Position numbers and translations under genes: made by a program. From the NCBI GenBank assembly GCA_028448965.1, contig JAONQT010000006.1, positions 1-34,147 of the forward strand: DNA of 34,147 nucleotides, in the 5' to 3' direction. The notes below the pieces were generated by a model, which worked only from the letters and a program-made list of their open reading frames with translations, did not search any database and was not told the DNA's origin. Of this stretch, positions 12,583 through 17,777 are shown in pieces (position 1 is the stretch's first letter; each line of letters begins with the position of its first letter). The DNA is from Candidatus Nitrosopumilus sp. Lineage in GTDB: Archaea; Thermoproteota; Nitrososphaeria; Nitrososphaerales; Nitrosopumilaceae.

Positions 12583-14727
12583 TTATGGAATATTAGATGG
12601 AACATAATTTTGATTAATTTCATAAACAAAAACAAGATTTACTTGTCCATTTTCCTCATTACTAAAACTAGGTGATGAATGCACTAATTTTAGTGGACCG
12701 CTATCAGAGAAATATTTTACATCTTCAACATAGAGAGGGTAAAATCCAGGTCTAAATTCATTATATGATTGTCCAGATGTTTGATCATAATATGCAATTG
12801 GAGTATATGGAATCATTTGACCTAATAATGTATTATTGAAGAAATTATTATTTACAGTATACAAATCAGAAAACAAATAGTTTTGTACTGGTAATTCAGC
12901 TATTCGAATAAACCATTGTGCTTTAGTTTCATCTCCACCAGTACCAAGTATATACAAACGCTCACCTGAATTAGAATAATGGTTTAATCTTTCAGCTGCA
13001 ACAAATACAACTACATAATTAGCATCCCATTCTTTTAACATATTCCATGCATCATCAGGATTACTAAGAAAAATTTTTGCCATATGTTTAATTCTTGAAT
13101 CAATTAATGTGGCATTATCAACGAATGTTATCCTATCAGACATTGTAGTAATCCAATATCCGTAATCCCACCACGAAGCAATAATTGCATCTTGAGGAGT
13201 ATTATTTTTCATCCATTCAAGAGTTTCTAACCAATCATTACCAGGCGCTGCAATATTTCCTCCTCCAGTTAGAATTGTTGGAGGAATATCAAGAACACTA
13301 ATCCAATTTCCACTACTAGACTCAGGGTATACCAGTGGAATGGTAAATAGAACAAAAATAATTACTACATATGAGATTTTGAATGCATAGTTTTTCATAC
13401 CAGAAAAATTAATCTTAAAAATTTCTTTAGTTAAAATAGATAAACCAATTGATGCAAGAATAATTAATGATAAAGATGCGAATAATTCTAATCTTACAAA
13501 TGCAGAACTGATATACACACTAGTGATTCCCAAAATTAGAACAAATGCAATTATGTCTTTTTTTATGAAAATTTCACTTTGAATAACTTTTTTACTTAAA
13601 ATTATCCAAATTCCAATTCCTGCAAAAATCATATAAATTGAATTAAAAATAAAAGATGATGAAAGATCAGTAGTTGCATGTTCTGAAACTGAATCAGTTA
13701 ATGGATCCATTGTCAACATGAATGGATTAATTGCATTTAGATAACGATAACTTGGTAAATTAATAAAATTAGAATCTCCATTTATTATCATTAGAGATGA
13801 ACCAATCACAATAATAAATAATAATAAAATTAATCCATTTCTTGTTTTATTTTTCTCTTTGCTTAATTTTTGAATAAATATACAAGTTATTAGGAAAACA
13901 GTAGGTAAAATTAAAGAAAAACCTCCTAAACCAAATACAAATGATAATCCAGGTCTTTCAAAAAGACTTGCAGTTATAAGAAATGTTACTACAAATAATG
14001 GGATACTCCAAACTAAAAATTTATGATCTTTACGAATAAACGGTAATACAAGAATAAATATTCCAATTGGAATTATAAAAAATTGGTTTCCCCCCCATGA
14101 AGCCATTCCAAAAGTCATAATTACACCTCCAGAAATAATTTTTAAAATTGCGATTTTTTTATTTTCAGATTTTATTCCACTCAAAAAGAAATACAGTCCA
14201 AGTAAACCATAAAAAATTCCTAAAGGTTCAGATTTGAACCATCCAGCCATTCCTCTTATAGCAATTGGAAGGGATATTGCAATTAGTAAAGATGAAATTA
14301 AACCTGCAGTGGTTCCTGCAAATAATCTAACTAGTGCAAACATTACAAATATAGATAATGAAGAAACAACTAATGGAAAAAGTATAGTAAAATCATATAG
14401 ACTTGAATTTCCACCAAATATTTGATAAGTTATAGCTGCGGTTATGTGAAGCATAGTTTGAGAAGTTGCTGAAACATCTCTTCCTGTAGGATACCAACTT
14501 TTGTCATCATGCCATTCAAAATATTCAGAAAATCCATTTTCTACAATATATCCAGTAGCACGAAAATTGAAAAATGGATCAAATTCATTTAACTCATTTC
14601 CATAATCAAGTCCTTGAGATTTTATTGTATAAGATATTGAGAAAGATAGCAACAAAATTCCAATTACAGCAAGATGATGTAATTTGAACTTAAAAGAAGC
14701 AGTTTGAAATAATGTAGTATTATTCAT
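12583..14727 (-). CDS. aglB: oligosaccharyltransferase AglB (STT3)
   Basis: A 714-residue catalytic subunit for N-glycosylation of secreted proteins. Counting from the TTG one codon upstream of the chosen ATG, the protein shows EFDPFFNFRAT (49-59) with the first metal-binding Asp; HDDKSWYPTGRD (74-85); many hydrophobic segments from about 18 to 465; SVSEH (347-351) in an outer loop; and the sequon-recognition motif WWDYGYW (520-526) in the C-terminal soluble domain. The pattern SVSEH plus WWDYGYW-x-VDNAT is closer to eukaryotic STT3 than to bacterial PglB. It transfers the lipid-linked glycan to Asn-X-Ser/Thr on the outer face. It lies at the end of the glycan island and 52 nt downstream of tes. 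Confidence 0.95.
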   Translation of the reverse strand: MNNTTLFQTASFKFKLHHLAVIGILLLSFSISYTIKSQGLDYGNELNEFDPFFNFRATGYIVENGFSEYFEWHDDKSWYPTGRDVSATSQTMLHITAAITYQIFGGNSSLYDFTILFPLVVSSLSIFVMFALVRLFAGTTAGLISSLLIAISLPIAIRGMAGWFKSEPLGIFYGLLGLYFFLSGIKSENKKIAILKIISGGVIMTFGMASWGGNQFFIIPIGIFILVLPFIRKDHKFLVWSIPLFVVTFLITASLFERPGLSFVFGLGGFSLILPTVFLITCIFIQKLSKEKNKTRNGLILLLFIIVIGSSLMIINGDSNFINLPSYRYLNAINPFMLTMDPLTDSVSEHATTDLSSSFIFNSIYMIFAGIGIWIILSKKVIQSEIFIKKDIIAFVLILGITSVYISSAFVRLELFASLSLIILASIGLSILTKEIFKINFSGMKNYAFKISYVVIIFVLFTIPLVYPESSSGNWISVLDIPPTILTGGGNIAAPGNDWLETLEWMKNNTPQDAIIASWWDYGYWITTMSDRITFVDNATLIDSRIKHMAKIFLSNPDDAWNMLKEWDANYVVVFVAAERLNHYSNSGERLYILGTGGDETKAQWFIRIAELPVQNYLFSDLYTVNNNFFNNTLLGQMIPYTPIAYYDQTSGQSYNEFRPGFYPLYVEDVKYFSDSGPLKLVHSSPSFSNEENGQVNLVFVYEINQNYVPSNIP

Positions 14728-14779
14728 CAATAAATAAAAAATTGATTGAACTGTTATTACTCTTTTGAATTAAATTTTA

Positions 14780-16444
14780 CTACATTGTTGCTTGAGATGC
14801 ATCATGGAACATCTGACTTTTTGCACAGCCAGCAGCAAGTTCATCGCCTGCACCACGTCTCATAAGACCTCTATAAAGACCGTCTTCAAGTTTTACACCT
14901 TCACGTTCTTCCCATTCTTCTACAGTAATAGAATATTTCTTTTGAATTCTGTCTCTATACCATTCTGGGATTACATTAAATGCACAGAATGGAACTATTC
15001 TAAGATCTGGAGTAACATAGTGAATATCACATCTTTGTAATCTTTCAAGATCTTCATTGTATTTATCTTGGAAGTGCATCATACCAAGGAATAATCCTTT
15101 GACGTGCCATGAACCAACTGAATCAAATGATCTCTTCATGAGAATATTACCAAACATTTTTGCTAAATCTAATCCTGCTGGTTGTTTTTTAGTATCAACA
15201 AAGCCTTTTAGTTTTCTTACTACTTCAAGCATTGTAAAGTATTTGTTTTTACCAGAACGAATTTCTTCTGCTTTATCTTCAAAGAGTTCTAACATTCCTT
15301 GAATATCACAGAATTTAGTTAATGGAACAAATTTCTTTGTATCAGCATCTTCAAAGATGTATGTTCCTGCACCACAAGCAAAGTGAATAGATAGTTCATA
15401 TTTTGGTTTGCTTGAGAATGCTTCAATTACATTAGTTAGTGGCATACAACTTGGAACTGGGAACCAATCATCAACGGTTACTTGACCATCTGTTTGTTCT
15501 TCAATTCTTTGAACACAGTCAGGGACTGTAATTCTGTATTTTTCACGTTCAGATTTACCCATTCTTCCAGTTAATGATACTGGTTGGAAGTTAACGGCGT
15601 GAACTACATCCATATTCTTTTGTGCATATCTAATAATTCCACCTAGTTCATGATCGTTAATTGATTTGATTACAGTTGGAACAAATACTACAGTAGTACC
15701 TGTTTTTCTACAACTATCAAGAGCATATGGAATTTCCCAATGATTTTTAGGATTTGTTCTTGCAGTTACACCATCAAAGGAAAGATACAAGTTATTACAT
15801 CCGGCAAGTCTTACTTCTCTTGCTGCTTCTGGATCCATTGCATGTCTAATGCCATTAGTATTCATTTGAATATGGTCAACACCTTCTTCTTTCATAATTT
15901 GAATAACATCAGCAATATCTTCTCTGAGCATTGGTTCACCGCCAGTAATTTGCATAGAGTTTCCTGGAATTGGTCTTTCTGCTCTTAGAGTTTTCATCAT
16001 ACCTCTAACTTGAGTATGATCTGGTTCATACATGTAAGCGCCTTCAAGGCCTTTCTTTACATAAAAGAAGCAGTACCAACATGTTAAATCACATCTATTA
16101 GTTACAATCATGTTTGCTAATCCACTGTGAGATAAGTGATTTGAACACAAACCGCAATTATTTGGACAAGAACATTTGTCAATCATTACATTTGGAGAAT
16201 GTGCACCTTTTCCATCCATCCAATAGGTACTGAATTTTTTGTACATTTCATAAGAACCAAAGTATAATTCCTCACACTCACCATGAGTTGGGCAAATTTT
16301 TGACATGAAAACTTGACTATCTCGCTCAAAGACTTCAGCATCTAAAATCATATTACAATCAGGACATATACTTTGAGTAAATCTGATAGTAGATTTTTTA
16401 CCTAAATTTTTACTTGATTGATTGGAAATCTGAATTAGTGCCAT
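14780..16444 (-). CDS. tes: tetraether synthase (radical SAM, Tes/GDGT synthase family)
   Basis: A 554-residue radical SAM enzyme. Counting from the TTG seven codons upstream of the chosen ATG, it has an N-terminal Cys set (C34, C37, C58), a second cluster CSCPNNCGLC (98-107), the radical SAM motif CDLTCWYC (C125, C129, C132), GGEP (175-178), and a long C-terminal region with further Cys. The layout matches Tes (MJ0619 type), which joins the phytanyl chains of archaeol lipids head-to-head into membrane-spanning tetraethers. ATG at 16444 is chosen over TTG at 16465 because a strong box A at 16471-16480 puts transcription start near 16450, after the TTG. Family sure; that it makes tetraethers here is inference from the family. 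Confidence 0.88.
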   Translation of the reverse strand: MALIQISNQSSKNLGKKSTIRFTQSICPDCNMILDAEVFERDSQVFMSKICPTHGECEELYFGSYEMYKKFSTYWMDGKGAHSPNVMIDKCSCPNNCGLCSNHLSHSGLANMIVTNRCDLTCWYCFFYVKKGLEGAYMYEPDHTQVRGMMKTLRAERPIPGNSMQITGGEPMLREDIADVIQIMKEEGVDHIQMNTNGIRHAMDPEAAREVRLAGCNNLYLSFDGVTARTNPKNHWEIPYALDSCRKTGTTVVFVPTVIKSINDHELGGIIRYAQKNMDVVHAVNFQPVSLTGRMGKSEREKYRITVPDCVQRIEEQTDGQVTVDDWFPVPSCMPLTNVIEAFSSKPKYELSIHFACGAGTYIFEDADTKKFVPLTKFCDIQGMLELFEDKAEEIRSGKNKYFTMLEVVRKLKGFVDTKKQPAGLDLAKMFGNILMKRSFDSVGSWHVKGLFLGMMHFQDKYNEDLERLQRCDIHYVTPDLRIVPFCAFNVIPEWYRDRIQKKYSITVEEWEEREGVKLEDGLYRGLMRRGAGDELAAGCAKSQMFHDASQATM

Positions 16445-16470: not shown

Positions 16471-16480
16471 AGTATATAAT
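16471..16480 (-). promoter_or_regulatory. box A promoter for tes
   Basis: Minus-strand ATTATATACT, an excellent TATA element, is centred about 31 nt before the ATG at 16444. It predicts a leader of about 5 nt and rules out the in-frame TTG at 16465. Confidence 0.7.
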
Positions 16481-16492
16481 TTGTTACATACT

Positions 16493-16531
16493 AACCCCCG
16501 TGTGGAATTTAGTAGATACGCGTGAGGGGTT
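16493..16531. promoter_or_regulatory. inverted repeat between tes and trmB promoters, candidate operator
   Basis: AACCCC (16493-16498) and GGGGTT (16526-16531) form a perfect 6-bp inverted repeat around a 27-nt centre. It lies exactly between the two divergent box A elements; the right arm touches the trmB box A. The block is strikingly GC-rich for this genome. Binding by the adjacent TrmB or DtxR protein is an inference. Confidence 0.45.
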
Positions 16532-16539
16532 TAAATATC
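16530..16539 (+). promoter_or_regulatory. box A promoter for trmB-dtxR
   Basis: TTTAAATATC is centred 26 nt before the ATG at 16561, giving a leaderless mRNA. It lies inside the longer frame that would begin at GTG 16522, which is therefore rejected. Confidence 0.65.
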
Positions 16540-16560
16540 AAAACTGATCGATTAGATCGC

Positions 16561-17328
16561 ATGAGTATATCTGATAAAACAAAAAAATCTTTAGAAAAAA
16601 TTGGTCTTACTAGTTATGAAATCAAAACATTTTCTACATTACTAAAATCAGGAGAAGTTACAGCATCTGATCTTAGTCAAAAATCAGGCGTTCCATATTC
16701 AAAAATCTATGAAGTATTAGGATCATTAGAAGAAAAAGGATGGATCGGTTCAGATGATTCAAGACCAACAAAATATTTTGCAAAATCGCCATCTACAGGA
16801 GTGGAAAGTACAAAACAAAAGATGGAAAGTGATTTTTTACAAAATCAAAATATTATTTTAAATGAATTAGTTCCCTTGTATGAAAAAAGTGGAACAAGTG
16901 AAAGACCAGACATATGGGTACTTTCAGGAGCAGTTAACATTACTGCTAAAATTTTAGAGATGGTAGAAAGTTGTAGAGATGAAGTAATGATCACATTGCC
17001 TGAAGCTGGTGTAGAATTAGTTAAACAGGCGTTACCAAAATTAAGAGCACTTCATGATAAAGGAGTTAAAATTACAATTCTTACATCAGATAAAATAGGT
17101 AAAGAAGCAATTACAGCAATTAAAAGAGTTGCAGAAGTTAAAATTAAGAAAGGTTTGTTTGGAGGAGGAATAATTTCAGATAAAAGATATGTTGTAATTT
17201 TATTAGGTCCAGAAATTGCAAGTGAAAATTCTTCAGAAGTTGTTGCAATTTGGGCAGATCATACAGGTTTAGCAGGATTTGCACGTCAGTATTTTGAATA
17301 TTTATTAAAAGATTCAAAAAAGGTATAG
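16561..17328 (+). CDS. TrmB-family transcriptional regulator
   Basis: A 255-residue protein. The first about 75 residues form a winged helix (LEKIGLTSYEIKTFSTLL, VTASDLSQKSGVPYSKIYEVLGSLEEKGWI) typical of TrmB. The rest resembles the TrmB effector domain with a phospholipase-D-like fold (VLSGAVNITAKILEMVESCRDEVMITLPE). TrmB proteins usually sense sugars or other metabolites, but many thaumarchaeal members have no known ligand. The gene is divergent from tes with a candidate operator between and is followed after 2 nt by a DtxR-type gene, so the pair is an operon. ATG at 16561 is chosen on promoter position. Confidence 0.85.
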   Translation: MSISDKTKKSLEKIGLTSYEIKTFSTLLKSGEVTASDLSQKSGVPYSKIYEVLGSLEEKGWIGSDDSRPTKYFAKSPSTGVESTKQKMESDFLQNQNIILNELVPLYEKSGTSERPDIWVLSGAVNITAKILEMVESCRDEVMITLPEAGVELVKQALPKLRALHDKGVKITILTSDKIGKEAITAIKRVAEVKIKKGLFGGGIISDKRYVVILLGPEIASENSSEVVAIWADHTGLAGFARQYFEYLLKDSKKV

Positions 17329-17330
17329 TT

Positions 17331-17777
17331 ATGGATATACTCAAAGAAGAAACATTGTTTGTTGGAACTGCAGAAGCAGAACATGTTGAAATGTATCTTA
17401 AAGCAATTTGGCACATAAGAGAAAGAGGAGAAGATGTTAAAATTAGTACAATTGCAAAAATGCTTAACATAAGACAGCCAAGTGTAGTTCAAATGTTAAA
17501 AAAATTAAATGGTAAAAATCTTGTTGAATATAACAAAGCAGGAGTAAATCTTACAGAAGAAGGAGAAAGAATTGGTTCTAGTATGATGAGAAATAGTCGA
17601 TTATTAGAAGTCTTGATGGATAGTGCATTAAAAGTAGCAATTGATGAAGAAATGGTATGTGGAATTGAACATCATATGAATAAACAATTTACAGATGCAT
17701 TATGTACAATGTTAGGACATCCAAGAAAATGTCCACATACTCATGATATTCCAATGGGCGAATGTTGTAATAACTAG
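17331..17777 (+). CDS. DtxR/MntR-family metal-dependent repressor
   Basis: A 148-residue regulator. Residues 15-80 form the winged helix (VKISTIAKMLNIRQPSVVQMLKKL) and the dimerisation/metal part follows. The primary metal site CGIEHH (C110, E113, H114) matches DtxR C102/E105/H106, and LGHPRKCPH (128-136) is the usual family C-terminal block. At the ancillary site the expected RHRLLE is RNSRLLE, so the His is Ser (S89). There is no SH3-like domain. The tail has extra Cys/His (CPHTH, ECC). An AAAGGT Shine-Dalgarno with AGGT at 17321-17324, inside the end of trmB, serves its ATG. It would control iron or manganese genes, possibly with TrmB. Confidence 0.85.
   Translation: MDILKEETLFVGTAEAEHVEMYLKAIWHIRERGEDVKISTIAKMLNIRQPSVVQMLKKLNGKNLVEYNKAGVNLTEEGERIGSSMMRNSRLLEVLMDSALKVAIDEEMVCGIEHHMNKQFTDALCTMLGHPRKCPHTHDIPMGECCNN

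Follow-up and report, generated by a model that had tools for sequence, protein, structure and literature searches.

A conserved element upstream of the tetraether lipid synthase gene tes and a neighbouring TrmB-family protein as its candidate regulator in Nitrososphaerales

The window analyzed in this study is the whole stretch of 34,147 nucleotides of contig JAONQT010000006.1 (positions 1 to 34,147, forward strand) from the Candidatus Nitrosopumilus sp. assembly GCA_028448965.1, a source genome with 0.65 Mb of sequence that is approximately 54% complete. In the window, the tetraether lipid synthase gene tes is encoded on the minus strand, and an operon of a trmB-family regulator gene and a dtxR-family gene lies opposite to it on the plus strand. 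Labels beginning with G, L, and f are arbitrary and denote genomes, loci, and families, respectively, with f1 including Nitrosopumilus. The features of the locus are as follows.

14780..16444, minus strand: tes, tetraether lipid synthase, 554 aa; NCBIfam NF045702 with 690 bits (curated cut-off 450), PDB 7TOL with E=5e-123
16473..16480, minus strand: tes box A, TATATAAT, in the tes direction ATTATATA; mean pairwise identity of 0.93 in 66 Nitrosopumilaceae intergenic regions
16476..16509, minus strand: conserved tes upstream element and its join to the TATA box, in the tes sense AATTCCACACGGGGGTTAGTATGTAACAAATTAT; from the EM motif and the conserved f1 blocks
16489-16494 and 16509-16514, no strand: TACTAA/TTAGTA inverted repeat, overlapping the conserved element
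16493-16498 and 16526-16531, no strand: arms of the AACCCC/GGGGTT repeat; present, but with perfect arms in a single one of 66 relatives
16530..16537, plus strand: trmB box A, TTTAAATA; mean pairwise identity of 0.90 in f1
16561..17328, plus strand: trmB-family gene for a regulator of 255 aa, proposed to control tes; PF01978 with E=1e-22, PF11495 over its first half only
17331..17777, plus strand: dtxR-family gene for a metalloregulator-like protein of 148 aa, sharing an operon with trmB; matches above cut-off to PF02742 and PF01325

The start codons of tes (16444) and trmB (16561) are separated by 116 bp, and the gap between trmB and dtxR is 2 bp. The divergent layout of tes and trmB-dtxR with two box A elements, as described in the initial annotation, was thus borne out. 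A gene for an AglB/Stt3-like oligosaccharyltransferase, a large membrane protein (12583-14730, minus strand), begins on the same strand 49 bp downstream of tes, and a homolog was also found downstream of tes in many Nitrosopumilus loci (34 loci with a match). Control of tes might reach this gene in the genus Nitrosopumilus.

The TrmB-family protein was assigned by its winged-helix domain, which scored 79.9 bits with PF01978 against a cut-off of 25.6. It reached 80.9 bits with the TrmB equivalog model, for which the cut-off is 600, and the effector domain PF11495 was matched only at positions 2-124 of 233, so that the protein classifies neither as a TrmB equivalog nor as a sugar-sensing TrmB. 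Both PF01978 and PF11495 were matched by all TrmB orthologs in set A1 (23 of 23). The DtxR-family protein scored 52.7 bits with PF01325 and 69.7 bits with PF02742, and among ammonia oxidisers trmB was followed by dtxR at a distance of no more than 120 bp in all 77 loci where dtxR was found.

Across the order, tes was divergent from and adjacent to trmB in 85 of the 90 TrmB-ortholog loci examined. Two of the five exceptions had too little flanking contig, while three were real separations (G210, G018, and G032). Divergent tes/trmB neighbours were also present in the families f4, f6, f7, f10, f11, f13, f14, f16, and f17. Outside the order, the same divergent layout appeared in G459 (f57), and TrmB was located within 1-3 kb in G458 (f56) and G312 (f28). 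The earlier proposal that tes and a TrmB-family regulator share a divergent control region is therefore supported by an arrangement conserved far beyond the source genome.

A perfect AACCCC/GGGGTT inverted repeat between the two box A elements had been proposed as an operator at which TrmB or DtxR would bind and block trmB. The repeat is present in the source genome, where the spaced pair occurs a single time in 0.65 Mb and its right arm touches the trmB box A, but it amounts to little more than chance. Perfect 6-bp inverted repeats averaged 2.15 per shuffled version of the region, so such a repeat is expected by chance, although repeats with arms of at least 4 G/C were rarer than 6-bp repeats generally and were held by 3% of the shuffles. 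The arms are perfectly complementary in the source genome only (1 of 66 Nitrosopumilaceae tes-trmB intergenic regions). Elsewhere, the closest species included, the right arm is GATT- or GGTT-like and variable (CTGATT, GTGATT, CGGGTT), while the identity of both box A elements in f1 stays at 0.90-0.93. Conservation of the repeat across relatives had been set beforehand as the refutation test, and the repeat was not conserved where both promoters were. Blocking of trmB through the right arm fared no better, as the conserved element of the region is tied to the TATA box of tes, not to trmB. The AACCCC/GGGGTT pair was rejected as an operator, and its binding by either regulator with a block of trmB is scarcely credible.

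A conserved inverted-repeat-like element does exist between tes and trmB, though it is not AACCCC/GGGGTT. In the tes sense it is a pseudo-palindrome, CtaTTCACCnTntGAntnGTnnGA, followed by BRE/TATA, and in most lineages 16-17 bp lie between the end of its core and the tes TATA box downstream. An EM search of 38 tes promoters yielded one motif, CtaTTCACCnTntGAntnGTnnGAAAAnnnTTAT, with a log-likelihood of 417 compared to 103-114 for shuffles, and this motif spans the TATA box at nearly fixed spacing. At the core, the dyad symmetry TTCA-N5-TGAA was paired to 52% at that axis compared to approximately 23% on most others; strict palindromic models fitted the 38 tes promoters worse than the unrestricted model. 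The element was found upstream of tes in most families of the order and in four families outside.

Nitrosopumilaceae carry a diverged form of the element, AATTCCACACGGGGGTTAGTATG in the tes sense, and intermediates such as CTATTCATCTGGTGTCAAGTAGG bridge the two. The sequence in the source window, AATTCCACACGGGGGTTAGTATGTAACAAATTAT, is this diverged form of CtaTTCACCnTntGAntnGTnnGA...TTATA. The conserved portion between the two box A elements in f1 is located on the tes side and reads TTTC(A/C)(T/C)ACTnnnC(C/A)CC(G/A). With a motif trained without f1, only 8 of 66 f1 regions exceeded the 1% null, the site of the source window not being among them, and at least 54 of the 66 best matches in f1 were at about the expected position. 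As so few f1 regions pass this null, the homology of the f1 form rests on position and intermediates and not on score. The TTAGTA half of the overlapping TACTAA/TTAGTA repeat is common to the f8 form, TTAGTAGG, and TACTAA...TTAGTA is a better operator candidate than AACCCC/GGGGTT.

The element belongs to tes, since its distance to tes is constant while that to trmB varies, and since it stays with tes after separation. Its TATA end is followed by the tes ATG after 25-36 bp, and the distance of the element from the trmB ATG ranges from 47 to 319 bp (representative loci were picked by the analyst). All 7 tes promoters separated from trmB (G210, G018, G032, and the four further lineages G012, G081, G513, and G312) contained the element when scanned with a motif trained only on linked loci, with scores of 17.9-28.3 bits compared to a 99th percentile of 13.1 bits for real random 150-mers. 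By inspection, no such element occurred in the trmB promoters split from tes in G210, G032, and G018. In G210, the separated trmB promoter (L048) directly follows a tRNA-like gene and contains a repeat of its own, ATTACACTATCAATAATGTGAT. In G006 (f7, L197), Tes is only 35% identical to the source Tes and still scores 607 bits with NF045702, and the same TrmB and the element TTACACCTTATGAAT adjoin its divergent tes. This divergence of the f7 Tes reflects either fast evolution or a replacement of tes in place. Two tes copies with equal scores were present in the Nitrosopumilaceae genome G189 (C1:1063474-1065135 and 1071476-1073137), 8 kb apart.

In 41 genomes searched with the f1-specific pattern, one mismatch being allowed, only a single site other than the tes promoter was matched. 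For the general pattern, which includes the TATA spacing, 250 genomes contained approximately 113 matches, of which about a third were at tes; the reversed control gave approximately 106. A wider regulon of the same architecture was rejected, as there was no excess over this control, and by these searches the element is nearly specific to tes.

None of the six tes promoters from genomes without a TrmB ortholog contained the linked-loci motif; this class, like that of the separated tes promoters, is small and phylogenetically clustered, and consists of two lineages, G264, G274, and G278 in f1 (each approximately 90% complete) and G013, G037, and G045 in f13. The three f1 genomes, which belong to the genus Nitrosopumilus, encode only distant TrmB paralogs (E about 1e-12), and their tes is without the element. 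They have kept dtxR, which is located beside an apparent A-type ATP synthase subunit gene. The element is thus not retained everywhere that dtxR is, and the role suggested for DtxR at the tes site, including that of reader of the element, did not find support, as dtxR persists where both the element and trmB are missing. In f13, the TrmB-less genomes are without the element, and G027 keeps TrmB beside tes together with the related TCACCCGGTGA.

In f9 and f23, TrmB orthologs are kept away from tes and the tes promoters are without the core element, which counts against TrmB as the regulator of tes. The recognition helix of TrmB in f9 (L185, L186, L190, L191, and L193) reads VPVSKIY in 5 of 5 cases, with Val for an otherwise constant Tyr, while all other TrmB examined have a VPYSKIY or IPYSK(I/V)Y-like helix. 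The changed helix in f9, together with the missing element at tes, speaks for TrmB as the reader. Genomes without tes, trmB, and dtxR (G093, G141, G258, G266, and others) were considered as natural knockouts and rejected, as contig ends, N runs, or the loss of the neighbouring pelota gene suggest missing sequence instead. In G093, a closed-looking single contig, neither tes, trmB, and dtxR nor the pelota gene nearby was matched well, and part of the sequence is apparently absent.

What was observed is the order of the genes, the element with its fixed spacing and its attachment to tes, and the lack of the element in two TrmB-less lineages; from these observations we infer that TrmB binds the element with an activating effect. 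We consider it fairly likely that TrmB is a transcription factor dedicated to tes, which it probably activates from just upstream of the TATA box. A TrmB dimer would bind the pseudo-palindromic element, with the core TTCA-CCnTn-TGAA, upstream of the tes TATA, and would most likely aid TBP/TFB assembly at the tes promoter, as TrmBL1/Tgr does at upstream sites. TrmB would thereby set tetraether lipid synthesis, and a ligand, probably not a sugar, may modulate it. Activation is the likelier sign because in most lineages the core stops 16-17 bp short of TATA on the upstream side, where TrmB-family sites activate (PMC4158304). AACCCC/GGGGTT and DtxR stand outside this mechanism on present evidence. 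The chances are about even that the pair represents an ancient dedicated regulation, in which one TrmB-family factor and one cis element for the single gene tes were already present in the ancestor shared by Nitrososphaerales and related lineages, the element being kept on tes despite separation or tes divergence.

Divergent regulator-target pairs are often repressor pairs, and TrmB could read the element as a repressor, or both ways, for example by holding tes down and, in loci with little intergenic space, regulating trmB as well. In f1, the trmB box A is within approximately 30 bp of the element. Such a role is nonetheless unlikely, as the site precedes the tes BRE/TATA without overlap, the trmB promoters separated from tes (G210, G032, and G018) are without the element, and upstream sites of the family activate while downstream sites repress (PMC4158304). 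Quite unlikely, too, is a basal or proximal tes promoter element read by another factor, with trmB merely as an old neighbour. While the TrmB orthologs without the element in f9 and f23 imply that the two can be uncoupled, the element is missing in lineages without TrmB, and its architecture is not enriched at other promoters in 250 genomes and is therefore not a general promoter feature.

It is highly improbable that the conserved GGTGA (trmB sense) serves as the Shine-Dalgarno sequence or 5' leader of trmB and is no regulatory site of tes. The short intergenic regions of L175, L101, and L102 do have GGTGAA a few bases before the trmB start, but elsewhere the motif is 47-319 bp away from it, and seven lineages with tes away from trmB keep the motif at tes with the same TATA spacing. 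The Shine-Dalgarno assignment was rejected by these separated loci, and a ribosome-binding role of GGTGA could only be an extra in few lineages.

The tetraether lipids of ammonia-oxidising archaea are products of Tes, and their fossil record is used as a thermometer (TEX86). The cellular control of GDGT formation is an open question according to the discoverers of Tes (PMC8941075). With TrmB as a candidate regulator and a mapped site, this question can be put to a direct test in cultures of Nitrosopumilus and Nitrososphaera. If TrmB does act on tes as proposed, the two would form an unusually old regulator-target pair in archaea.

The literature searched on Tes and TrmB regulation contained no described regulator of Tes. 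The tes of the window encodes an ordinary member of the Tes/GDGT-MAS family (MJ0619 structure 7TOL; PMC8941075; PMC9433317). The product of the gene downstream of trmB shares both DtxR domains with the DtxR/MntR family, but nothing ties this protein to the tes element. With TrmB of Pyrococcus furiosus (PDB 3QPH; site TACT-N3-AGTA), the regulator shares the N-terminal winged helix with its invariant Tyr region and the placement of a local regulator gene beside the target operon. It differs in its target, which here is membrane lipid synthesis, in the position of the site, and in a profile match that ends at position 174 of 338 with the C-terminal part unmatched. TrmB-family proteins bind inverted repeats, and their sites upstream of BRE/TATA activate while those downstream repress (PMC4158304). 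The TGM sequence of TrmBL1/Tgr in Thermococcales, TATCAC-N5-GTGATA, was not found in the tes element, whose consensus is TTCACCnTntGA. The likeness to TrmBL1/Tgr lies in the TrmB-family DNA-binding domain and in an inverted-repeat site upstream of BRE/TATA, which TrmBL1/Tgr has at the genes it activates (PMC4158304); the tes element was found at this position.
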